Made by a program: the position numbers and the translations under genes | Assembly: GCA_009773315.1 (NCBI GenBank) | Contig: WRPE01000014.1 | Coordinates: forward strand, 1 to 60,979 | DNA: 60,979 nt | From: Syntrophaceae bacterium | GTDB lineage: Bacteria > Desulfobacterota > Syntrophia > Syntrophales > Smithellaceae | Reading direction: 5' to 3' | In this document: piece after piece, positions 32,247 through 45,972 of the stretch | Numbering within the stretch: the stretch's first letter is position 1 | Layout: every line of letters starts with the position of its first letter | The notes under the pieces: model-generated | What the model saw: the letters and a program-made list of their open reading frames with translations, nothing else | The model's database searches: none | Told to the model about the DNA's origin: nothing

Positions 32247-32258
32247 TTGAAATATTTT

Positions 32259-32452
32259 ACCCCTGCGATGTGCGTGATTGTCATTTGTTTTTGAGCCAAC
32301 ACTTTGAACCTGGGGCCTATACTTGTTTGCGGTGAGCATGTCCGCCTTTCCCGCTGGTCGGGTGGCAGAAAGCCTGAAACAAACAACACCGGGCGCCCAC
32401 TTTTTTAAAAAGGTTCAAAATCGTGATTAACACGGCATAGGCGGGGATTTTT
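32259..32452 (+). ncRNA. ssrS: 6S RNA (SsrS)
   Basis: About 190 nt between zapA and rny. The centre contains GCGGTGAGCATGTCCGCC, then AGAAAGCCTGAAACAAACAA, closely matching the conserved central-bubble strand of E. coli 6S RNA (GGUGAGCAUGCUCGG...AGAAGCCUUAAAAC). The ends pair: CCCC (32260-32263) with GGGG (32443-32446), then TGC/GCA and GTG/CAC, followed by a U-run. 6S RNA mimics an open promoter and binds housekeeping RNA polymerase holoenzyme. Ends are approximate. Confidence 0.85.
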
Positions 32453-36492: not shown

Positions 36493-36921
36493 CTAGAGAT
36501 CCATAAGAAAAGGCAGCGATTTGTCCAGCCGGTAAACCAGTGACTGACAGGTGGCAAGAAGCTTTCCGCAATCGTCAGTGGCGCGGATATCGTAAGCGGC
36601 GGTTCTTTTGGTTTTGTTGATCTCTCTGGCTTCGGCGGTGAGTTTTGCGCCTTTGGCCGGTGAGGCTAGATAATTGATATTCATATTAAGAGCGACAGCC
36701 ATCGTGCCGTGTGAGTTGGAGGCGACTTCAAAAGCTGCGTCCATCAGCGAGAAAATCGCGCCGCCGTGGGCCATGCCGAACATATTTTCCATGTTGCCCG
36801 TAAAAACCATTTCTACTTTGGCGTAGCCTTCCTGCACATCAACCAATGTCAATCCGAATATTTTACCGAATGGTTCATTTTCAATCTGTCGATAGATTGC
36901 AGTTCGAATTCTGTCGTCCAT
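36493..36921 (-). CDS. Hotdog-fold thioesterase (PaaI family)
   Basis: A 142-residue acyl-CoA thioesterase-like protein. NMFGMAHGGAIFSLMDAAFEVASNS is the hotdog catalytic loop and helix with the HGG motif and Asp; ALNMNINYLASPAKG is the following strand. PaaI members hydrolyse aryl- or acyl-CoA. ATG 36921 is chosen because AGGAGG lies 5 nt upstream. The in-frame start at 36957 would add a non-conserved stretch. It stands alone, convergent with tyrS. Confidence 0.85.
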   Translation of the reverse strand: MDDRIRTAIYRQIENEPFGKIFGLTLVDVQEGYAKVEMVFTGNMENMFGMAHGGAIFSLMDAAFEVASNSHGTMAVALNMNINYLASPAKGAKLTAEAREINKTKRTAAYDIRATDDCGKLLATCQSLVYRLDKSLPFLMDL

Positions 36922-37023
36922 AACGGCCTCCTTGAGAAAACAGATGGGGCAAATCACCTGAAGGTGACATAGTAAATATTTGCCCCCTGCTACAATAAAT
37001 AATATTGACTTGGATTAGCATAC

Positions 37024-37052
37024 AAAAAAAGGGCTTCCGTTTAGAGAAGCCC
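37024..37052 (-). terminator. Terminator attached to the tRNA-Lys remnant
   Basis: On the minus strand GGGCTTC (37052-37046) pairs with GAAGCCC (37037-37031), followed by seven Us. It begins 8 nt after the CCA of the tRNA-like remnant, the normal spacing for a tRNA terminator. Confidence 0.75.
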
Positions 37053-37060
37053 GAAAATCG

Positions 37061-37078
37061 TGGCGGGCCGTGCGGGGG
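37061..37078 (-). repeat. tRNA-Lys 3'-end duplicate (att-like direct repeat)
   Basis: The minus strand reads CCCCCGCACGGCCCGCCA. The intact tRNA-Lys at 45898-45972 ends TCCCCGCACGGCCCACCA: 16 of 18 identical, including 13 contiguous bases, same strand. The rest of the tRNA is missing, but a tRNA-style terminator follows. This matches the scar expected at the far end of an element integrated into the tRNA-Lys 3' end. A chance remnant of another deleted tRNA is the alternative. Confidence 0.6.
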
Positions 37079-37095
37079 TGGTGAGCGTGATTGTT

Positions 37096-37130
37096 GCAGA
37101 TCAACCCCATTTCAGACGGGGTTGATCTGC
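37096..37130. repeat. Perfect 13-bp inverted repeat
   Basis: GCAGATCAACCCC (37096-37108) and its exact complement (37118-37130) enclose a 9-nt loop. It lies 54 bp after the substrate-binding protein stop on the minus strand. There is no U-run; it may act as a transcript-end stabiliser or an operator. Confidence 0.6.
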
Positions 37131-37183
37131 TGTTTAAAACAAATCCCGTGGCGCATCATGATGGCCAGCGTTTATTTCAGATG

Positions 37184-38668
37184 CTATTCGCCCCAGTCGT
37201 TCTTTCCTTTACAGCGGTCCAGCTTTTGATCCATCCAGGGGAGCACCTTTTCGGCTGGTAGCACAGCCGTCGGGCCGTAACTGGACGAGCCCTGATACCA
37301 GTAGTAGGGAGGAATATTGAAGGAAACCTTCTGCTGCTCCCACGGCACGAATTCGGAAACGGCAAGATTCTGAATGATCTTGTGATCACAGGCTCTCATC
37401 TTCACCTTTTTCCCATTGACGAATTGATAGGTGTCATTCTCCCACACGGCGATGATCTTTTCCGGGTCGGTGCTCTTGGCCCTTTCTATAACGCTCAGCA
37501 GCCAATAGGTAACTCCCGTCCAGGAACCATAATTACCGCCATAAATTTCAAAAAGCCTGCTGTTGTATGGCGCTGTCTTCCATTTGTTCTTCCACTGATC
37601 ATTCCAAGCCTTATACATTTTGATGTGTCCCGGCAACTGAAATTGCGGGTTTGCCGTGTTGAAAGTACTGAGATTGGTCAATCCGTTTGTCCCTTCGACA
37701 CCGACTTCATGCAAGCTATTGGGTTCGTCCATGTAGATGTTAGCAATGGGTAGCATCACATTCATCTGCCGGGCCTGTTTCAGTAGATTGCCCGCATCGG
37801 GCAGCCAGTCGCCAGTGTAGATGACTTCGGCGCCGGAGGCCTTGATCTTCTCCAGATAAGGGGCGTAATCCGTGAGGAAGAGCTTATGGTAATCTTCGCC
37901 AACAAGCTGTGCCTCGGGGTAGTATTCCTTCAATCCCTTCTTGAACCCCTCAGCCATTTGATGGCCGAAAGAGTAATCCTGGCAGAGGATGTAGAACTTC
38001 TTTTCCTTTTTCCGGATTTGTCCGTAATAATAGGCCATACCGCGGCCGACCTGCTCGGTGGAAAACGCAGTATGGAAAGCATAGCGGGAGAAATTGGATG
38101 CATCCATGAGGTCATCGGACAGGCAGGTGGCATTGATGGCAATGACTTTATACTTGTTAGCTGTTTCATTGATGATCTTCATCAGATGGCTGCCGTCGGT
38201 GCCCCACAGGACGTGAACCTTCTCCTGAAGGATCATCCGCTCAACAACCTTTTTGCACTGGTCCGGTTTGCCCATGTGATCGGCCTTGATAATTTCGACG
38301 AGTTTTTTCTTGCCGTCAACCCAGATGCCGCCTCTTTTGTTGATGTCATGGGCCACCCATTGCGTCACATGCCAATAGAGCGTCCCGTTTAAAGCGGCCG
38401 GCCCGGAAAAGGATGCCACGACAGCGATCTTAATCGTGTCCCCTGTAGGAGAAACGACTGTGGCCGGATCGAAGTCTGACATATCCCCCATCTTGTTGGC
38501 GTCGTAGGCCGCATTCACTTTACCCAGCTTGTCTGAAGGATCTACTTTGGTTGTTTTGGCTTTTTTGTCAACTTTGGCCGCCATGGCCGTGGTCGGTCCA
38601 TAAGCCACCAGAAAAAAAACAGAGAAAATCAACAACACAGACGAAAAACGTTGAAGAAAACACCTCAT
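37184..38668 (-). CDS. ABC transporter substrate-binding protein (Peripla_BP_6, branched-chain amino acid/urea type)
   Basis: A 494-residue periplasmic binding protein. A signal peptide covers about residues 1-30 (MRCFLQRF, then a hydrophobic run, then AMAA/K). IKIAVVASFSGPAALNG and HDINKRGGIWVDGKKKLVEII mark the first lobe, and YILCQDYSFGHQMAEGFKKGLKEY marks the second lobe. No permease or ATPase genes are adjacent, so it is an orphan. Its position in the block with CoA-ester enzymes suggests an organic or amino acid substrate, which is inference. Confidence 0.85.
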   Translation of the reverse strand: MRCFLQRFSSVLLIFSVFFLVAYGPTTAMAAKVDKKAKTTKVDPSDKLGKVNAAYDANKMGDMSDFDPATVVSPTGDTIKIAVVASFSGPAALNGTLYWHVTQWVAHDINKRGGIWVDGKKKLVEIIKADHMGKPDQCKKVVERMILQEKVHVLWGTDGSHLMKIINETANKYKVIAINATCLSDDLMDASNFSRYAFHTAFSTEQVGRGMAYYYGQIRKKEKKFYILCQDYSFGHQMAEGFKKGLKEYYPEAQLVGEDYHKLFLTDYAPYLEKIKASGAEVIYTGDWLPDAGNLLKQARQMNVMLPIANIYMDEPNSLHEVGVEGTNGLTNLSTFNTANPQFQLPGHIKMYKAWNDQWKNKWKTAPYNSRLFEIYGGNYGSWTGVTYWLLSVIERAKSTDPEKIIAVWENDTYQFVNGKKVKMRACDHKIIQNLAVSEFVPWEQQKVSFNIPPYYWYQGSSSYGPTAVLPAEKVLPWMDQKLDRCKGKNDWGE

Positions 38669-38987
38669 TCCAATACCCTCCCTTCAAATTAGAAACTAAA
38701 GCACTTAATTTAGGTCTATAATAGTATTAACGCGAAGTCAAGCATATAGATAACAAACTATATTTAATATTAACGATAACTTATAAACAAGGATGATGAA
38801 AAGTGAAATACTAACGTTTGTTGTAAATATTAGATTTCCCCATGGAATACAAAAGGCCCCGCTCGGTTAGCGGGGAAGTATTTTTCGCATCTGCTTCATT
38901 CAGAGAGAAGACTTTAGGCAATTGATTGTAAAGAATTCCGGAGAACGTTAATGCCCGGGGAAACTTTCCCCGGGCATTGTGTGTGTG
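38669..38987. other. Intergenic region between the binding-protein and HpaB-family genes
   Basis: This 319-bp stretch holds no gene. A weak minus-strand promoter for the binding protein may be AGTCAA/TCTATA on the plus strand (38736-38741 and 38715-38720, 15-bp spacer). Two hairpins lie further right: CCCCGCT/AGCGGGG (38857-38863, 38869-38875) and the strong one listed separately. Confidence 0.5.
38950..38978 (-). terminator. Strong palindrome after the HpaB-family gene
   Basis: Perfect 14-bp arms (38950-38963 and 38965-38978) with a single central base, 9 bp after the stop codon on the minus strand. It lacks a U-run, so it may be an mRNA 3'-end structure rather than a standard terminator. 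Confidence 0.5.
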
Positions 38988-40529
38988 CTATTTCTTTGCC
39001 GTCAACACGATGCTTTCATAGGATTCATCAATGGGAGGCATTTTTACGAAATCCTTCCGGAGCGGCAGCTTCCCATAGATGGGATCATCCTGCCACCCAT
39101 CAACATGTGCCGCCCGTTTCGCCGCCGATTGGAGCTTTTTCCAGTTGGCGCTGGCATAGAGGAACATCTCCTGGGCGGCCATGGATCCTTCGCCGTGAAT
39201 GGTGTCGATCTGATAGTGATTTCCGGTGATGTCCTTGATGAGCCGAAGGATGCGGATCCGGTCCTCCGTAGGTACGCCGTCTTTGGCTGCCAGGTATTTT
39301 TCAATGAAGGGCTTGATTTCATCATTCTTCCAGTCCCGGAAAGTTGGCACCGTCGTTGTCAAGCCGCCGCCGATATCCTGCATATACTGGCATATCTGGT
39401 GGATATTGCTTGCGTAGGTGAACTTCGACGCGTTGATGGCCATCCTGTTGGGCATCATCACATCCATGCCGAATTCCGTCATTGGCTCGAGGCAGGCCTG
39501 TTTGCCCAGCATCTGCACCGTTTCCGTAATATAGGCCATCCAGGCCAGCTTTTTACGGACGTGGGGAACATTCTGGACACCGTTATATTCGGCAATCAGG
39601 CTCGCGGCCCCGGTCATGGTTTCGAGGGTCCCCGTCATCTTGCAGGTGCCGAAGAGGCGGTGATAACTGGCGAAAGCGTAAGCCAGGACCTGGGAGAACT
39701 GCCATTCGCCGCACATGAAGACCCGCTCCCAAGGTACGAAGACGTCGTCGAAGATGATCAAGGATTCAGACGGCTGCATATGGTCCGAAACGGGATAGTC
39801 AAATTCGCACTCGTCACCGTAGAGCCGGAAGTTCGGCTCGACGCCTAAAAGTTTGACGCCGGGCGTGTTGACGGGTACAGCAAAGCCCAGGGCATAATCC
39901 TTGTCCGCCTCGCCATGGGTCCGGCAGGGCAGGCAGAGCAGCTCATTGGCGCAGGGCGAGGCGCTGATATGCACTTTGGCGCCCCGGACCACAATGCCGT
40001 CCTTTTGCCTGTCCACGATCCTCAGGTAAAAGTCCTTATGCTGTTTCTGCTTTGAGGGATGAAGGCTTCTGTCCCCCTTCACATCCGTAATGGCGCCCGT
40101 GATGGCCAGGTCGTTCTTCTGCAGGTATCTGCGGTATTGTTCGACGCGCTCCATGTAACCGGTCCCCAGGTTCTTGTCCATTACCTGGGCGGCAACGGAA
40201 AAGGCCGCCAGCGCATCGGCGCCCATGCAGTGCACGATTACGCCGCCTCCGGACCTGATGCCGACGGTGTAGCATTCTCGCCTGCGGAGCATGTCTGTCG
40301 CTGTCTTCGGAGAGGTGAGCAGGAAATTAATGTCCTCCCCGTCCGCATCCTTCGTTACAAACAGATCCCGATAATCGGGATGGTTCGGCAGAACATAGTC
40401 CATAGTGGCCGTTCTGATGATGGTGCTCACCGTCGGGTGGGTCCGGACATCGGTCACCTTTTCTCCCATGCACCATACTTCCCTGCCGTCATTCAAGCTT
40501 TCCAGATACTGTTCTACTGTTTTGATCAT
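38988..40529 (-). CDS. HpaB/4-hydroxybutyryl-CoA dehydratase-family flavoprotein
   Basis: A 513-residue protein of the family that includes 4-hydroxyphenylacetate 3-monooxygenase (HpaB) and the [4Fe-4S]/FAD enzyme 4-hydroxybutyryl-CoA dehydratase (AbfD). Family stretches are RTATMDYVLPNHPDYRDLF, KGDRSLHPSKQKQHKDFYLR, FDDVFVPWERVFMCGEW and NIHQICQYMQDIGGGL. AbfD uses three Cys and one His for the cluster. Here Cys101 (HCMGAD), His290 and Cys296 (YHRLFGTCK) could correspond, but Asp occupies the C-x3-C partner position. The function may therefore differ. In an anaerobe a CoA-ester dehydratase or isomerase is likelier than an oxygenase. GAGGTG precedes the ATG. Confidence 0.75.
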   Translation of the reverse strand: MIKTVEQYLESLNDGREVWCMGEKVTDVRTHPTVSTIIRTATMDYVLPNHPDYRDLFVTKDADGEDINFLLTSPKTATDMLRRRECYTVGIRSGGGVIVHCMGADALAAFSVAAQVMDKNLGTGYMERVEQYRRYLQKNDLAITGAITDVKGDRSLHPSKQKQHKDFYLRIVDRQKDGIVVRGAKVHISASPCANELLCLPCRTHGEADKDYALGFAVPVNTPGVKLLGVEPNFRLYGDECEFDYPVSDHMQPSESLIIFDDVFVPWERVFMCGEWQFSQVLAYAFASYHRLFGTCKMTGTLETMTGAASLIAEYNGVQNVPHVRKKLAWMAYITETVQMLGKQACLEPMTEFGMDVMMPNRMAINASKFTYASNIHQICQYMQDIGGGLTTTVPTFRDWKNDEIKPFIEKYLAAKDGVPTEDRIRILRLIKDITGNHYQIDTIHGEGSMAAQEMFLYASANWKKLQSAAKRAAHVDGWQDDPIYGKLPLRKDFVKMPPIDESYESIVLTAKK

Positions 40530-40875
40530 ATTGTCACCTCTTATTGAAATTGGATTTACAAGTTTTATCCGGTACCGCCAGGCAGAATGATTATGCCCTG
40601 CGTTTTAAGGATGCCTTTCTAATGCAACAGGATGCGTTCCGTGGAGTCTTGTTTTCTTGTTTGGCGGATTATAAAAAAATGATGTTTAAATGTCAAGAAA
40701 ATAAAGTATTAGTAGCAATAATATAAATTTAAATAATAACTTAAATGAAAACGATTGTTTTATTATTTTCTCCATTTTTAGCGGTATGGGAATTAAAGGA
40801 AAGGAGGAACGATTGGCGACTGAGGGTTTTGTTGCAAACGAAAAAGACGATCCCCCTTTGCATTGCATCGGTGTC
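40530..40875. other. AT-rich regulatory gap between the TetR and HpaB-family genes
   Basis: A 346-bp stretch with no convincing gene. Short frames exist on both strands but lack ribosome sites and family features. It holds the consensus promoter listed separately and a long leader (about 130 nt) for the HpaB-family transcript. I found no clear palindromic TetR operator. Confidence 0.5.
40668..40696 (-). promoter_or_regulatory. Perfect consensus sigma-70 promoter for the HpaB-family gene
   Basis: On the minus strand TTGACA (40696-40691), exactly 17 bp, then TATAAT (40673-40668). Transcription would start about 130 nt before the start codon. A consensus promoter this strong usually needs a repressor, and the TetR gene next door is the obvious candidate. 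Confidence 0.8.
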
Positions 40876-41529
40876 TTACATCGGTTCCGGGATGATCGCT
40901 TTTAGCATAGATTCTTCCGCCAAGTCCAGGAACTCTTCCTTCGTGTATCTTTTTAAGTTCCAGCTTCTCAAAGGGTAAAGAGAAAGTTGAAAGACGAGCA
41001 CGTTGGCTGCAAAAAAAGGATCCTTGACTGTGAAAACTTTCTTTTCCACGCCCCTGGTGATGATGTCTTCAAATATCCGTATGAGATCGCTTTCCTTGCT
41101 CAAAACAATTTTCCGGAATTTTGGAGGCAGGACCCCCGTCTCCCGATACATCATCAAGACATCATTCATGGCGTGATGAATCATTTCGAGCATTTGATGA
41201 ACAGCGACTCTCAGTTGCTCTTTTGGATCCTCTATATCCAATACGCCTTCACGCTTAAACCATTCCATCGCGGGATCATGATAAGTCTCAAAAGCGAGGC
41301 AGAGGATATCTTCTTTGCTGTTAATGAAGTTATACAAATTTCCAAGATTAATGTCTGTGGCCTTGGATATATCGCGCATGGTGGTCTTGGCATATCCTTT
41401 TTTTATGAACAGTTTTGAAGCCTTTTTCACGATATGAATCTGTCTCTTGTTAACATTATCCTGCTTGATGCTCCGGGATTTTACCACATTGCTTTTGTCG
41501 TGATCGCCGATGTCTTTTATTTGCTTCAT
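40876..41529 (-). CDS. TetR/AcrR-family transcriptional regulator
   Basis: A 217-residue repressor-type protein. Residues about 28-75 form the TetR helix-turn-helix (IHIVKKASKLFIKKGYAKTTMRDISKATDINLGNLYNFINSKEDIL in pieces), followed by an all-helical ligand-binding domain. In anaerobic aromatic and fatty-acid degraders such regulators often bind acyl-CoAs; that is inference here. It lies between the dehydratase subunits and the HpaB-family gene, all on the minus strand, and probably controls one or both. Confidence 0.88.
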   Translation of the reverse strand: MKQIKDIGDHDKSNVVKSRSIKQDNVNKRQIHIVKKASKLFIKKGYAKTTMRDISKATDINLGNLYNFINSKEDILCLAFETYHDPAMEWFKREGVLDIEDPKEQLRVAVHQMLEMIHHAMNDVLMMYRETGVLPPKFRKIVLSKESDLIRIFEDIITRGVEKKVFTVKDPFFAANVLVFQLSLYPLRSWNLKRYTKEEFLDLAEESMLKAIIPEPM

Positions 41530-41798
41530 GGATTCCCTTTCTAGAAAGATTGGTGCGGAATATCGTTCGGGCGCTTATTTGCGTGAACGTCTGATCCGTC
41601 AACCCTTCATCACTCTTACCTGGATCAGTAAAAGGGCATGCTTCAGTTTGAGGCTATGGTTTCGTGATATAGCTTGCTGCATTTCCGATACTTTTCGCAT
41701 GAAACAAAACGTCCTTATCAGGCCGTGCCGTTAAAAGCAAGTTCTGATCAGAGGTGACTATACCGCTGTCTCCCACCCAGTTTTTCGGGAAGAATACC

Positions 41799-43094
41799 TC
41801 AGATTGGATTAGAATTTTTACGAGGTGTTTGTGCTCCCCTCTTAGCATCGATGACTTCCAACAACGCTTCGATGCGCGTGAAAACCGATTCCTCACTATA
41901 CTTGCGTATATCGGCGTGATCAACATCGATCATCACGCTGGGGATTCCGAGCCGCTCAGTTACACGCTTCAACATATCCATCTGCATGAGTGAATACACT
42001 TTGCAGCTCCTATTGCTGGCAAAAATAACACCGTCTATCCCCAGGGTTTCAATGGCTCTTTGCATCGCCTGATAGCGAAGCTCCAGTCCATGCGGGCAGA
42101 TGGAAAAGTTCTGTATCCTCGCCAGATACGTGAGAGGATCGCCGCCGTCATACGGATACAGATCAAACTCACCCTCCAGACTGCCCATGCAATAGGTGTA
42201 GGACGCCGCAATCAGATTTGCATTGAGTGAAGCCAGACGCGACGACATTTTGTTCAATTGATGCCATGGGGCGATATTGTCCCAGAGAAGCCGGTATTTT
42301 TCATTAGGGACGGGGAAAATTCCTTTGGCAACATTCTCCTCAGTCTCATCGGCGAGTAGGCGGTAGTGTTCGGCCAACGCCTTTGTTCCCCGCGACGTGA
42401 GAAATGGAGCCATTTGGACAAAGGAATCGAAAACGGTCAAGCCGGCCGGCCGGGATACCGCCGTTTTAAGAAAGCGCTTCCAGTTTGTCAGTGCGCCTTT
42501 GGTATGTTCAAGCGCCTCCCGGACGCGATCGATGTTGAATTTCTGTCCGCTCAAGGTTTCGATGGTGCGGATGAGATCGCGGTATTGGGAGGAAATGTAG
42601 TTGAGATCTCTAGCTGTCTGCTGCTCATAACAAAACGGTATATCCAAGATGAAGTGCGGGACGTCCCATGCCCGGTGATAGATATCGAACCACTTGACTA
42701 GCAGAGAACAGTTGTTGTTATCTGAAATAAGCAGATGTGGTTTCGGTAGTCCAAAAGTGGGGGAATCCTTCCCTCCATCGAATGCTGTTCCCAGATCGAT
42801 CCGTGCATAAGAGCACAAGTCCATCGAATAGCCCATCGCTTCCGCTTTTTCGCATTGCAAGGGGCCAACGCCTTTACCGGCACTCATGGCGGCGTGGCTT
42901 TCCGGCACGCCGTAAACCACATTTTCAAAACCGCTGAACAATTCGGCAGGAACGACAATGGCAATCCAAACCACAAAAGCACCCTCCTTGGCTTTCTGGT
43001 GAAGACGCGTGTAATCATTGATCATCAGTTTGCTCAACCGTTTGCCGGCCTCGGTCTTCTTGTGCCCGGCTTTTAGTTTATCTTCATTCGGCAT
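41799..43094 (-). CDS. 2-hydroxyacyl-CoA dehydratase subunit (HgdB/FldC/BcrB family), subunit 2
   Basis: A 431-residue subunit of a ketyl-radical [4Fe-4S] dehydratase/benzoyl-CoA reductase-type enzyme (PF06050). Three family cysteines are in place: DLCSYAR (Cys94), SDNNNCSLL (Cys129) and ASNRSCKVYSL (Cys364), the expected cluster ligands. The start overlaps the end of the preceding subunit gene by 11 nt, so the two are coupled. The ATP-dependent activator (HgdC/FldI) is not in the window. Substrate is unknown: (R)-2-hydroxyacyl-CoA or an aromatic CoA ester. Confidence 0.87.
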   Translation of the reverse strand: MPNEDKLKAGHKKTEAGKRLSKLMINDYTRLHQKAKEGAFVVWIAIVVPAELFSGFENVVYGVPESHAAMSAGKGVGPLQCEKAEAMGYSMDLCSYARIDLGTAFDGGKDSPTFGLPKPHLLISDNNNCSLLVKWFDIYHRAWDVPHFILDIPFCYEQQTARDLNYISSQYRDLIRTIETLSGQKFNIDRVREALEHTKGALTNWKRFLKTAVSRPAGLTVFDSFVQMAPFLTSRGTKALAEHYRLLADETEENVAKGIFPVPNEKYRLLWDNIAPWHQLNKMSSRLASLNANLIAASYTYCMGSLEGEFDLYPYDGGDPLTYLARIQNFSICPHGLELRYQAMQRAIETLGIDGVIFASNRSCKVYSLMQMDMLKRVTERLGIPSVMIDVDHADIRKYSEESVFTRIEALLEVIDAKRGAQTPRKNSNPI

Positions 43095-44229
43095 AACGAC
43101 CTCCCTGATTGGCGGAACCGATCAATTCAGCAAATGTCTCAATACGCGTCACATAGGCTTCGGAGTACTCATTGTCGTCGATCGAAACTTCGAGGAACAG
43201 AGTCGGCACCCCCATATCCTTCAAGGTCTTTTCCAGATGAGGAATCTCAAAATACTCGAACTCGCAGAATTTCTCCCCGATAAACACAACGCCCTGTGCC
43301 CTGGTGCTGAGAATGAGTTCCCGTATTGCGGCCATGCGTCTGTCCGCCGTATACAGCAGCGTGGTACACGGATAATGATGGTTATAGAAATCAACATAAT
43401 AGTCAGCCGGATCATCCACCATCGCCGGCGTGTAAAAAAGCGCACGATTTTGTGAGGCGATATCATTTCCGACAAACGTTAGACCTGCATTTTCAAAAGC
43501 TTGGATCATGTGTAGCGGCGGAGGGAGGATGCCACTAACAACAATGCGACTCTGCACTGCCGACGGCACATGTTCCCGTTTGGACAACGGCCTGTCCTGA
43601 AGGATCTTCTGTAGTACGAGCAACTGATCCTCAGCGGGGATAAACCAGCCATCCCGGATTATCCGGGAAAACTCGTTGTAGCTCATGCGTCCATTCGCCA
43701 CGAGTGTTTCCAATGCTTTACACAGTTTCCTCATCTCGCGATAAAGAGACACGCTCTGCCTAAACTTTTCTATTGAAAAAGTCACCTGATAGGCTTCTTC
43801 AAGCTCATCGATCAACATTTTGATCCTGGCGCGGAGATAGGCTCGACTTTCCGTCTGTTCCCGCGGCACCATGGGAATGTGGATTTTGAAAATGGGGAGC
43901 GACCGGCCTGTGTCTGCGAGCCCGCAGTTGATGATTTCCGGAAGGTTGCGAAGCGTATCGCAGGCATTATACATGAACAATCCATCCAGTGCCGCACCAT
44001 TTTCCGAAAGCAGGAATTCCGTAAGGTGACGGGCAACCGAACAGGTATAGGGTTGTAAATGTCGATCGCTTTTCCCCGTCGTGGGGATTGAATCCTTGAG
44101 GCCCCATAACGTGACGGGCACCAATCCGAGCGAATGAAACAGCTCCAGAGGAGGGTAAAGAGGAAAACATCCGATCACTTTCCGCCCTTTAGCTTTGTTA
44201 TCTTTCATGTCGTTATTGATGTTTTTCAT
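43084..44229 (-). CDS. 2-hydroxyacyl-CoA dehydratase subunit (HgdB/FldB/BcrC family), subunit 1
   Basis: A 381-residue partner subunit. KVIGCFPLYPPLELFHSLGLVPV is the family N-terminus. Putative cluster cysteines are QPYTCSVAR (about 63), MYNACDTLRNL (about 90) and GEKFCEFEYFEIPHLE (about 322). ATG 44229 is chosen for its AGG box and because the residues encoded further upstream show no family similarity. First gene of the dehydratase operon, behind the promoter at 44257-44285. Confidence 0.87.
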   Translation of the reverse strand: MKNINNDMKDNKAKGRKVIGCFPLYPPLELFHSLGLVPVTLWGLKDSIPTTGKSDRHLQPYTCSVARHLTEFLLSENGAALDGLFMYNACDTLRNLPEIINCGLADTGRSLPIFKIHIPMVPREQTESRAYLRARIKMLIDELEEAYQVTFSIEKFRQSVSLYREMRKLCKALETLVANGRMSYNEFSRIIRDGWFIPAEDQLLVLQKILQDRPLSKREHVPSAVQSRIVVSGILPPPLHMIQAFENAGLTFVGNDIASQNRALFYTPAMVDDPADYYVDFYNHHYPCTTLLYTADRRMAAIRELILSTRAQGVVFIGEKFCEFEYFEIPHLEKTLKDMGVPTLFLEVSIDDNEYSEAYVTRIETFAELIGSANQGGRYAE

Positions 44230-44256
44230 GTTATACCTGTTATTAACTCGGCAATC

Positions 44257-44285
44257 ATCATCGGTTCCAGCGGGACTTCTGTCAA
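44257..44285 (-). promoter_or_regulatory. Promoter of the dehydratase operon
   Basis: On the minus strand TTGACA (44285-44280), a 17-bp spacer and GATGAT (44262-44257), 27 bp before the start codon. The -10 is weak, which suggests regulation. Confidence 0.5.
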
Positions 44286-44374
44286 GATAATTTAGAACAG
44301 ATAATTTCGTACTGAAGGGACAGAGTTTGAGCGTTATGTCCGGGGCTATCTGGACCGCGGTTATGCGCATAAAT

Positions 44375-44412
44375 AAAAAGTGCCTGGCCACAGGTAAGCC
44401 AGACACTTTTTT
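44375..44412 (-). terminator. Terminator after the serA-like gene
   Basis: AAAAAGTGCCTGGC (44375-44388) pairs with GCCAGACACTTTTT (44398-44411) with one internal mismatch and a 9-nt loop. The A/T ends allow function in both directions. It separates the dehydrogenase gene from the dehydratase operon. Confidence 0.85.
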
Positions 44413-44438
44413 GATAAATGGAGAACTTGCCAGAGGTA

Positions 44439-45599
44439 TTAAAGCACTCTGACGGCCAAGACCCCAGCGATCGACTGGATTTTCTTTGCCAGGTCAGTAT
44501 TGATATCGCCTTCCACGTCGATGATGTTGTAGGCTATGTTGCCTTTGCTTTTGTTGATCATGTCGGCGATGTTGAGCTTGTTGTTCGCCAGCATGTGCGT
44601 GATCTTCTCGATCATGCCGGGCTCGTTCTTGTTCGAAATAGTGAGCCTGGCCTTGTCCGACCTGTCGAGAGCGCATTCCGGGAAATTGACAGAGTTCTTG
44701 ATGTTTCCGTTCTCCAGGAAGTCCATGAGCTGCATGGCAGCCATGATGGCGCAGTTCTCTTCCGATTCTTCTGTGGAAGCGCCCAGATGCGGGATGGCGA
44801 TGACCTTGTCCATCTTGATGACCTCTTCATCCGGGAAGTCAGTCACGTAGCGGCTCACGATCCCGTCGGCAATGGCCTTCTTCATGGACGGGGTATCCAC
44901 GAGCCCCCCTCTGGCGAAATTCAGGATTACCACACCCTTCTTCATGACCGCGAATTTATCGGCATTGATGAATCCCTTGGTGTCCTTGTTCTGAGGGACA
45001 TGCAGCGAGATGAAATCGCATTCGGACAGGAGTTTGTCCAGACTTGGCGCTTTCTTGGTATTACGGGACAGTTTCCAGGCCGCCTCGATGGACAGGAACG
45101 GATCATATCCCCAGACTTCCATGCCCAGACCTTCGGCAGCATTGGCCAGCATGGTGCCGATGGCGCCTAAGCCTACCACGCCGAGCTTCTTGCCCAGGAT
45201 CTCGGTGCCGACAAACTTTGCTTTTCCTTTCTCAATCAGATCGGGTACTTTGTCGCCTTCTCCGATCAGCCCTTTGGTCCAGACAAGACCTTCCGCAACA
45301 CTGCGCGCCGCTAGGATCATGCCTAGGATGGCCAGCTCCTTCACGCCGTTGGCGTTTGCTCCCGGGGTATTAAAAACGACGATTCCTTTCTCCGAACATT
45401 TGTCGATGGGAATATTGTTGACACCGGCGCCGGCGCGAGCAATGGCCTTCAGAGACGACGGCAGGGCCATCTCTTTCATTTCCTTGCTTCTTACCAGGAT
45501 ACCGTCGGGATCGGGCATATCCGTGCGATACTCATACTTCTCCGGAAAAAGGCTGAGCCCCTTTTCCGAAATTTTATTTAACAGATCAATCCGATACAT
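44439..45599 (-). CDS. D-3-phosphoglycerate dehydrogenase-like protein (short, ACT-domain form)
   Basis: A 386-residue D-isomer-specific 2-hydroxyacid dehydrogenase. The NAD-binding motif is LGVVGLGAIGTMLANAAEGLGMEVWGYDP. Catalytic-type residues lie in NFARGGLVD (Arg), the Asp/Glu region TDFPDEEV and IPHLGASTEESE (His). A C-terminal ACT domain starts near residue 315. ATG 45599 follows GGAGG. The window also has a full-length serA (47363), so this one may be a second serine-pathway enzyme or an (R)-2-hydroxyacid dehydrogenase feeding the adjacent dehydratase. It lies between its own terminator and the tRNA-Lys terminator. Confidence 0.85.
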   Translation of the reverse strand: MYRIDLLNKISEKGLSLFPEKYEYRTDMPDPDGILVRSKEMKEMALPSSLKAIARAGAGVNNIPIDKCSEKGIVVFNTPGANANGVKELAILGMILAARSVAEGLVWTKGLIGEGDKVPDLIEKGKAKFVGTEILGKKLGVVGLGAIGTMLANAAEGLGMEVWGYDPFLSIEAAWKLSRNTKKAPSLDKLLSECDFISLHVPQNKDTKGFINADKFAVMKKGVVILNFARGGLVDTPSMKKAIADGIVSRYVTDFPDEEVIKMDKVIAIPHLGASTEESEENCAIMAAMQLMDFLENGNIKNSVNFPECALDRSDKARLTISNKNEPGMIEKITHMLANNKLNIADMINKSKGNIAYNIIDVEGDINTDLAKKIQSIAGVLAVRVL

Positions 45600-45769
45600 A
45601 AAATACCTCCTATACCTTTCCATATCTTTTTTATTATAGAGCACTCTGCTAAAGCAGAATACCTATTTTGTGCCACTATATGTCCAAAACAAATTGTCCT
45701 TATGGTGTTTTTTAATAAGAACTTCCGTTTTGCGGGATAAAGTATAGAACGGGCGTTTTTGTGTGTCAA

Positions 45770-45801
45770 GGAAATCTTAGCCACAGGAAATCTTAGCCAC
45801 A
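45770..45801. repeat. Perfect 16-bp tandem duplication
   Basis: GGAAATCTTAGCCACA occurs twice in a row with no gap in the intergenic region between the serA-like gene and tRNA-Lys. It looks like a recent slippage duplication. Confidence 0.85.
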
Positions 45802-45862
45802 AAATGTTGGTGTGCGGCGCCGATGTTAGGAATACGATTTTATGCGGATGTTCATGGATGTT

Positions 45863-45889
45863 AAAAAAAAAGGTTCCCTCTCGGGAACC
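45863..45889 (-). terminator. Terminator of tRNA-Lys
   Basis: On the minus strand GGTTCCC (45889-45883) pairs with GGGAACC (45878-45872) around 4 nt, followed by nine Us. It starts 8 nt after the tRNA. Confidence 0.9.
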
Positions 45890-45897
45890 CCTGATTC

Positions 45898-45972
45898 TGG
45901 TGGGCCGTGCGGGGATTGAACCCGCGGCCAACGGATTAAAAGTCCGCTGCTCTACCGCTGAGCTAACGGCCC
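45898..45972 (-). tRNA. tRNA-Lys (anticodon TTT)
   Basis: A complete 75-nt cloverleaf on the minus strand. The acceptor is GGGCCGT/ACGGCCC, the D-arm is AGCTCAGCGGTAGAGC, the anticodon loop CTTTTAA gives TTT, the T-arm is GCGGGTTCAATCCCCGC and CCA is encoded. Its 3' end is duplicated at 37061-37078. Confidence 0.97.

Follow-up and report, generated by a model that had tools for sequence, protein, structure and literature searches.

How does the 3' end of a tRNA gene come to stand a second time, some 8.8 kb away, on the far side of a set of metabolic genes? The question is raised by a 60,979-nt stretch of DNA (the window; contig WRPE01000014.1 of assembly GCA_009773315.1) from a Syntrophaceae bacterium of the GTDB family Smithellaceae, in which the last 18 nt of tRNA-Lys recur next to a thioesterase gene. 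An earlier prediction, made from the sequence alone, had read this arrangement as a probable genomic island left by site-specific integration at the tRNA 3' end. Integration is supported by our analysis, and we consider it likely that the interval is an old composite island: a mobile element would have integrated at the 3' end of tRNA-Lys, leaving a relic of the tRNA beyond it, and later events would have been layered on the first. What did not hold is the idea of a single clean 8.8-kb event, as the interval is composite and its dehydrogenase gene is a widespread and probably older insert. The features that frame the interval are the following.

45898..45972, minus strand: tRNA-Lys (TTT), intact, adjoining purA, the proposed integration target (ARAGORN; Rfam RF00005, 76 bits)
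45869..45892, minus strand: terminator-like stem-loop of the GGTTCCC type, now following tRNA-Lys (terminator scan)
44439..45599, minus strand: D-2-hydroxyacid dehydrogenase with an ACT-like end (PF02826/PF00389; NCBIfam PGDH hit below its cut-off)
37061..37078, minus strand: 18-nt relic of the tRNA-Lys 3' end (16 of 18 positions matching), putative attachment-site remnant at the far end of the insert
37031..37052, minus strand: terminator of the GGCTTC type before the thioesterase gene (terminator scan; compared by eye with the genomes G061, G041, G062, G066 and G064)
36493..36924, minus strand: hotdog thioesterase (PF03061), taken as the original downstream neighbour of tRNA-Lys, being the first gene after it in G061

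The repeat itself was confirmed. The last 18 nt of tRNA-Lys match 37061-37078 on the same strand with two mismatches, as claimed, and the recurrence is beyond chance, with no match to the 18-nt end in 100 dinucleotide shuffles of the window. An intact tRNA thus bounds the interval on one side and a displaced 3' fragment in the same orientation bounds it on the other. When the whole 2.98-Mb genome was queried with the 17-nt pattern CCCCGCACGGCCCRCCA, with R at the discriminator and at most two mismatches, three sites were found, two of them (the tRNA and the relic) exact and the third with two mismatches; the reversed control gave two. A looser tRNA-end pattern, also with up to two mismatches, gave four sites in the source genome and four in the control, so the relic is distinguished by its exactness and its place and not by how many near matches exist. 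The relic has an ortholog in the related genome G015, again between the binding-protein gene and the thioesterase gene, which matches the tRNA at 17 of 18 positions. Its single mismatch is matched in the window, and the two mismatches of the window are matched in G015. Because the G015 copy is mismatched at a different position, the simplest reading is that the relic would descend from a sequence identical to the tRNA end and is now decaying.

We next turn to the relatives, in a family sample of 51 genomes that includes the source genome (genomes are cited by G handles and loci by L handles). The original prediction had anticipated an empty site in which the tRNA is joined directly to the terminator, and such a site is present in one genome, G061, which belongs to another genus of the family. 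Here, purA and tRNA-Lys are followed after about 100 bp by the thioesterase gene; between the tRNA CCA and the thioesterase gene, a GGGCTTCC..GGAAG stem can be read by eye, and no dehydrogenase match was found in G061 at the cut-off used. The interval between tRNA and thioesterase gene ranges from about 0.1 to 60 kb across the 17 of 51 genomes in which it could be measured on a single contig (G000, G005, G006, G008, G010, G011, G013, G014, G019, G020, G021, G041, G046, G047, G056, G061 and G066). The adjacency of purA and tRNA-Lys was also seen in other families of the order (L117-L120).

Six genomes carry displaced fragments of the tRNA-Lys 3' end that are longer than the relic, at 43-54 nt, and most of these start at or near the anticodon loop. 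The fragment in G017 is 1.5 kb from the tRNA, and that in G041 lies 60 kb away, before the thioesterase gene. Two fragments are found in G044, at distances of about 62 and 77 kb, and two in G059, where the first encloses the dehydrogenase alone and the second has three mismatches. The G053 fragment likewise has three mismatches, and G062 has two fragments, one of which is at a contig end and possibly a cut tRNA. The position of the relic upstream of the thioesterase gene is that of the tRNA end in G061 and of a long fragment in G041 and G062. Integrases adjoin the tRNA or a fragment in at least five relatives: among the matches listed, tyrosine integrases neighbour the tRNA in G041 and a fragment in G044, and serine recombinases occur in G015, G021 and G052. 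As a side observation, genes that read as DNA-methyltransferase-like from their translations lie between tRNA-Lys and the dehydrogenase in G012 (L036) and G021 (L046).

The dehydrogenase is the gene most often found behind the tRNA. The gene order in the genus is serC-serA-purA-tRNA-Lys-dehydrogenase-thioesterase-tyrS. At the cut-off used, 29 of the 51 family genomes have a dehydrogenase match, and in 22 the gene follows tRNA-Lys on the same contig, at a distance of 25 bp to about 9 kb. Among the query genes, it alone stands between tRNA and thioesterase gene in G005, G011, G013, G014 and G019, with about 25-320 bp before it and 150-220 bp after it (tyrS lies outside the G005 stretch, and serA was not found in G019). 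Phylogenetic trees were compared for the 22 genomes having dehydrogenase, purA and serC. Genera g1, g2 and g3 are kept apart in the purA and serC tree, whereas in the dehydrogenase tree G008 (g1) joins G059 (g2), and G006 (g1) joins G021 and G063 (g3). A single clade is rejected by the dehydrogenase data for both g1 (p-AU 0.0016) and g2 (p-AU 0.0002). This conflict identifies the dehydrogenase as horizontally acquired cargo. It is widespread and probably an early insert, older than the block of dehydratase, TetR, HpaB and binding-protein genes that separates it from the relic in the window. A view of the dehydrogenase as the native neighbour of tRNA-Lys, which would contradict an island, was dropped after the family-wide search, in which G061 joins tRNA and thioesterase gene with no dehydrogenase match. 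In L035, L037, L038, L039 and L040 (G003, G013, G005, G019 and G011, respectively), the dehydrogenase starts 25-29 nt past the tRNA-Lys CCA. This gap is too short for the TTGACA/TATA promoter-like site found ahead of the gene in seven of nine genomes checked, the window included, and a read-through transcript of tRNA and mRNA is possible at such loci.

Between the dehydrogenase and the relic lies the block itself, with these features.

43084..44229, minus strand: HGD-D family dehydratase subunit, HadC/BcrC-like (PF06050; NF052456 134 bits, below the cut-off of 700)
41799..43094, minus strand: HGD-D family dehydratase subunit, HadB/BcrB-like (PF06050; NF052455 214 bits, below the cut-off of 750)
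40876..41529, minus strand: TetR-family regulator (PF00440, PF17932)
38988..40529, minus strand: HpaB-family protein (PF11794+PF03241)
37184..38668, minus strand: orphan periplasmic binding protein (Peripla_BP_6)
37096..37130, minus strand: hairpin after the binding-protein gene (by eye; conserved in G015 by alignment)

The Pfam searches agree with the gene content that had been described from the letters, which comprised dehydratase subunits, an HpaB-family protein, a TetR regulator, an orphan binding protein and a 2-hydroxyacid dehydrogenase. As far as the contigs reach, the block has the same order in G007 and G015 and, in part, in G004. Between dehydrogenase and thioesterase gene, G006 and G010 have an inverted HpaB gene, TetR, a binding protein and further genes. 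Among relatives the block is patchy, and HpaB is found in other positions. The cargo, in which two subunits are of the 2-hydroxyacyl-CoA dehydratase type although below the curated equivalog cut-offs, plausibly serves an anaerobic 2-hydroxyacid or amino-acid route; no activator or CoA-transferase was found among the genes scanned with Pfam. The closest solved relative of the HpaB-family protein is 1u8v, a dehydratase/isomerase of gamma-aminobutyrate metabolism (phmmer E-value of 6.7e-78). The first cysteine of the 1u8v CFQRC motif, which we take to be a cluster ligand, is replaced by valine here and in 11 of 11 orthologs read. The HpaB sequence is 99% identical to that of G004 and 88-89% identical to those of G007 and G015, and the other block genes of G007 and G015 are 93-98% identical to those of the window when the best binding-protein copy is used, a pattern that may reflect allele exchange of HpaB within the block. 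Three tandem binding-protein genes are present in G015 (L108:5430-10398) versus one in the window, so the copy number of this gene varies at the end of the block. Beyond the tRNA, the only structured RNA found in the window by Rfam at gathering thresholds was a 6S RNA gene (32257-32451; RF00013, 90.6 bits).

The terminators bear on where tRNA-Lys originally ended. It had been claimed that each copy of the tRNA end is followed by its own terminator at the same 8-nt spacing. Both stems are present, but the spacing is not equal: they lie 5 and 8 nt after CCA, and the earlier figure depends on how the stem is drawn. The GGTTCCC-type stem that now follows tRNA-Lys is also found after tRNA-Lys in G007 and G008. 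A scan for GCTTC..GAAGC terminators, covering the window, L031-L050, L101-L120 and L234-L272, located them only directly after tRNA-Lys or a fragment of it (G046, G049, G066, G041 and G062) or directly before the thioesterase gene (the window, G008 and G003); imperfect versions outside the scan pattern were read by eye in G061 and G064. Because of this placement, and because a stem of another type now stands at the tRNA, 37031-37052 is probably the terminator of the original tRNA-Lys unit.

We propose the following history. In an ancestor of these Smithellaceae, tRNA-Lys would have stood immediately ahead of its own terminator, with the thioesterase gene behind. Site-specific insertion of a mobile element into the tRNA 3' end would then have restored a complete tRNA on one side of the new DNA, while the former 3' end (37061-37078), probably together with its terminator, was displaced to the opposite side; the relic would in that case represent an attL site and not a decayed copy of the tRNA. 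Subsequent gene gain, loss and exchange at the hot spot would have cost the element its integrase and kept the dehydrogenase next to the tRNA, while the dehydratase, TetR, HpaB and binding-protein block would have been left or added between dehydrogenase and relic. The cargo presumably arrived on integrating elements.

Several observations weigh against such an island. No integrase remains, as had been stated: PF00589 has eight matches in the source genome and none on the window contig, PF07508 has no match in the source genome and none on this contig, and the open frames of 45601-45897, inspected by eye only, show no integrase likeness. With no integrase on board, the locus is filed as an island remnant and not as an intact island. 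The relic is only 18 nt long and begins in the T loop, whereas the longer fragments of relatives mostly begin further upstream, about the anticodon loop. A codon and GC check had been suggested and was run, and neither GC nor GC3 (GC content at third codon positions) gave an island signal; the GC content of the interval is ordinary, 0.491 versus 0.488 for the window, although atypical composition is not required of an old island. The block without linkage to tRNA-Lys, which had been named as a sign against the island, is present in part. HpaB orthologs of 86-87% identity lie elsewhere in G008, G011, G013 and G021, in which the interval from tRNA to thioesterase gene is contiguous without HpaB, and an ortholog of 84% is on another contig in G018; these placements indicate that the cargo moves. 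The long inserts of G006, G008 and G010 have no tRNA fragment at up to three mismatches. Many relatives are, moreover, fragmented assemblies in which contig breaks hide the junctions. The remaining two points, the arrangement of G066 and the terminators of G046 and G049, speak at the same time for a different origin of the relic. It might be the rest of a second complete tRNA-Lys before the thioesterase gene, the dehydrogenase having been enclosed by duplication or transposition of the tRNA with no integrase action. In G066 (L241:193-4023), the order is purA-dehydrogenase-tRNA-Lys-small gene-thioesterase, with the complete tRNA on the other side of the dehydrogenase. A full tRNA at the position of the relic had also been named as a sign against integration, and this partial instance of it keeps a duplicated tRNA in play. 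The order in G062 may match that of G066, its contig ending inside the tRNA. In G046 and G049, the purA-side tRNA still has a GGCTTCC terminator even with the dehydrogenase downstream. Such a terminator is thus not in every case a sign of the old site, which leaves the terminator evidence mixed and lowers our confidence in the island while raising it in a duplicated tRNA. Conversely, the duplicates in G017, G041, G044, G053 and G059 are 3' fragments and not whole tRNAs, an integrase stands beside the tRNA or a fragment in no fewer than five relatives, and upstream of the 18-nt copy there is no more tRNA sequence, and no tRNA 5' half, in either the window or G015. Descent from a duplicated tRNA is, in our judgement, unlikely.

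The relic could also be attP sequence carried by an element that reached the gap between dehydrogenase and thioesterase gene by another route, with the original position of the tRNA unmarked. This would fit the fact that the block, and not the dehydrogenase, adjoins the relic, and that dehydrogenase and thioesterase genes follow each other without a relic in G005, G011, G013, G014 and G019. The GGCTTC-type terminator that still follows the relic, as it follows tRNA-Lys or a fragment in G061, G041, G062 and G066, argues against it and makes entry by such a route very improbable. Mere coincidence of GC-rich sequence, with the block gained by homologous recombination between dehydrogenase and thioesterase gene, would agree with the normal composition, with HpaB, TetR and binding-protein genes lying between these two genes in G006 and G010 without a detectable fragment, and with genome-wide near matches, at up to two mismatches, being no commoner than in the control. 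Such a coincidence is hardly credible given that none of the 100 window shuffles produced a match, that the G015 copy is closer to the tRNA, and that the relic sits where G061 has its tRNA end and G041 and G062 have a long fragment. An old composite island thus remains the likely origin of the interval, and on the relic, what it probably means and where the island ends, the original prediction was right.

Three relatives have serine recombinases, belonging to phage-like elements, at this same tRNA-Lys. A 541-aa protein with Resolvase and Recombinase domains in G015 (L050:5625-7250) is encoded on the opposite strand to tRNA-Lys and stops 163 bp away from its 3' end, the frame of a 635-aa protein with the same domains in G021 (L046:12256-14160) runs over the tRNA, and G052 (L248:6933-8651) carries a relative of the G015 enzyme (82%) at the corresponding position. 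These three are among 21 PF07508 matches, which are found in 16 of the 51 genomes. In G004, G015, G016, G017 and G064, the far end of the element, ...CCAGCACCACCA, adjoins native sequence, which in G064 consists of a GGGCTTCC stem and the thioesterase gene. The two ends are on separate contigs in G015, the tRNA-side one on C297 and the far one on C35; in the other four carriers of the far end, no recombinase was found at an E-value of 1e-60. Both ends may belong to one element, because terminase-like and ParB-like frames, so named from their translations and not by family search, are common to C35 of G015 and the G052 locus. The window has the unoccupied form of the junction, in which CCCACCA runs directly into GAATCAGGGG. 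Rfam at gathering thresholds found no structured RNA in the conserved sequence after the tRNA in G015, G016 and G017. The relic was also considered as a product of this serine-recombinase element, and this was rejected as the far junction of the element shares only about CCACCA with the tRNA.

Related recombinases were found in viral sequences, where the search kept 80 loci at 44-64% identity. In 13 of these, a tRNA lies 171-329 bp past the recombinase on the opposite strand, its 3' end facing the recombinase (Ser 5, Met 3, Gln 3, Thr 1 and Ala 1), and three further tRNAs lie elsewhere in the 80 loci. At least 250 bp of downstream sequence is present in 70 loci, 57 of them without a complete tRNA. 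A pattern of T arm and CCA was found downstream in 19 of these 70 on the strand that bears the tRNAs and in 1 of 70 on the other, compared with 3 and 0 of 63 in the upstream controls. On a tree of the recombinases, the seven isotype labels require six changes, the minimum possible, and none of 200 shuffles was as low; this is a quick tree with 16 labelled of 85 rows, G009 being left out for its wrong reading frame, in which the Ser label alone is scattered, the Met group is weakly supported and the tRNA-Asn of L276 (G097) counts as a label irrespective of its distance from the recombinase. From these sequence comparisons, we see an even chance that tRNA-Lys of the Smithellaceae is used by two unrelated classes of integrase, with the serine one belonging to a broad clade specialised on the CCA ends of tRNAs of several isotypes, each lineage tending to its own tRNA. 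The island in the window would then be one old layer at a doubly used site. Two points lower our confidence in this proposal: the G015 element falls on two contigs, and 57 of the 70 viral loci with enough sequence show no complete tRNA.

The locus is a bounded example of how metabolic genes are acquired and rearranged by a syntrophic anaerobe at a single place in the chromosome, and one family displays the empty site, the filled sites (about 0.1 to 60 kb) and the decayed relic. A further lesson is that an 18-nt tRNA relic, read together with relatives, is enough to recognise as an island a block without integrase and of normal composition. A tRNA-specialised branch of serine recombinases, if true, would matter for integrase tools and for island finders that seek only tyrosine integrases at tRNA genes. 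Among the listed papers on Smithella genomic islands and prophages, no title or abstract opening names this locus.

How does this site compare with known systems? Sinorhizobium meliloti, which belongs to another phylum than the host here, provides one comparison. As described in the passages compared, its hot spot, tRNA-Lys(CUU) gene 039, is likewise a single tRNA-Lys that has served as a target more than once, and the direct repeats measure 46-49 bp; it differs in its anticodon, and in the Smithellaceae serine recombinases also use the site (PMC11476347). Serine recombinases at tRNA genes have precedents: mycobacterial actinomycete integrative and conjugative elements (AICEs) in tRNA-Leu and the Ralstonia phage phiRSM1 in tRNA-Ser, called rare in the text consulted (PMC3218068), and Paracoccus phage Pami6 in tRNA-Met, one predicted case (PMC6536676). 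The Int-S elements described in a further paper, on Mycobacterium prophages, are not at tRNA genes. The recombinase group found here stands beside Lys, Thr, Met, Gln, Ala and Ser tRNAs, a breadth within one clade that was not met in the literature passages compared. It is likened to the elements of PMC3218068 and PMC6536676 by tRNA placement only, and the likeness concerns the relatives and not the window itself. For the window, the nearest counterparts are the tRNA islands defined by Islander (PMC4383910), for which the portions consulted describe crossover classes at the anticodon loop and the T-stem region as well as tandem islands. Both have an intact tRNA, a displaced 3' fragment in the same orientation and cargo in between. 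Unlike those islands, the one in the window has lost its integrase, so the Islander integrase test would reject it, and its fragment is only 18 nt long with two mismatches (PMC4383910). The locus is of a known kind, an island remnant at a tRNA hot spot.

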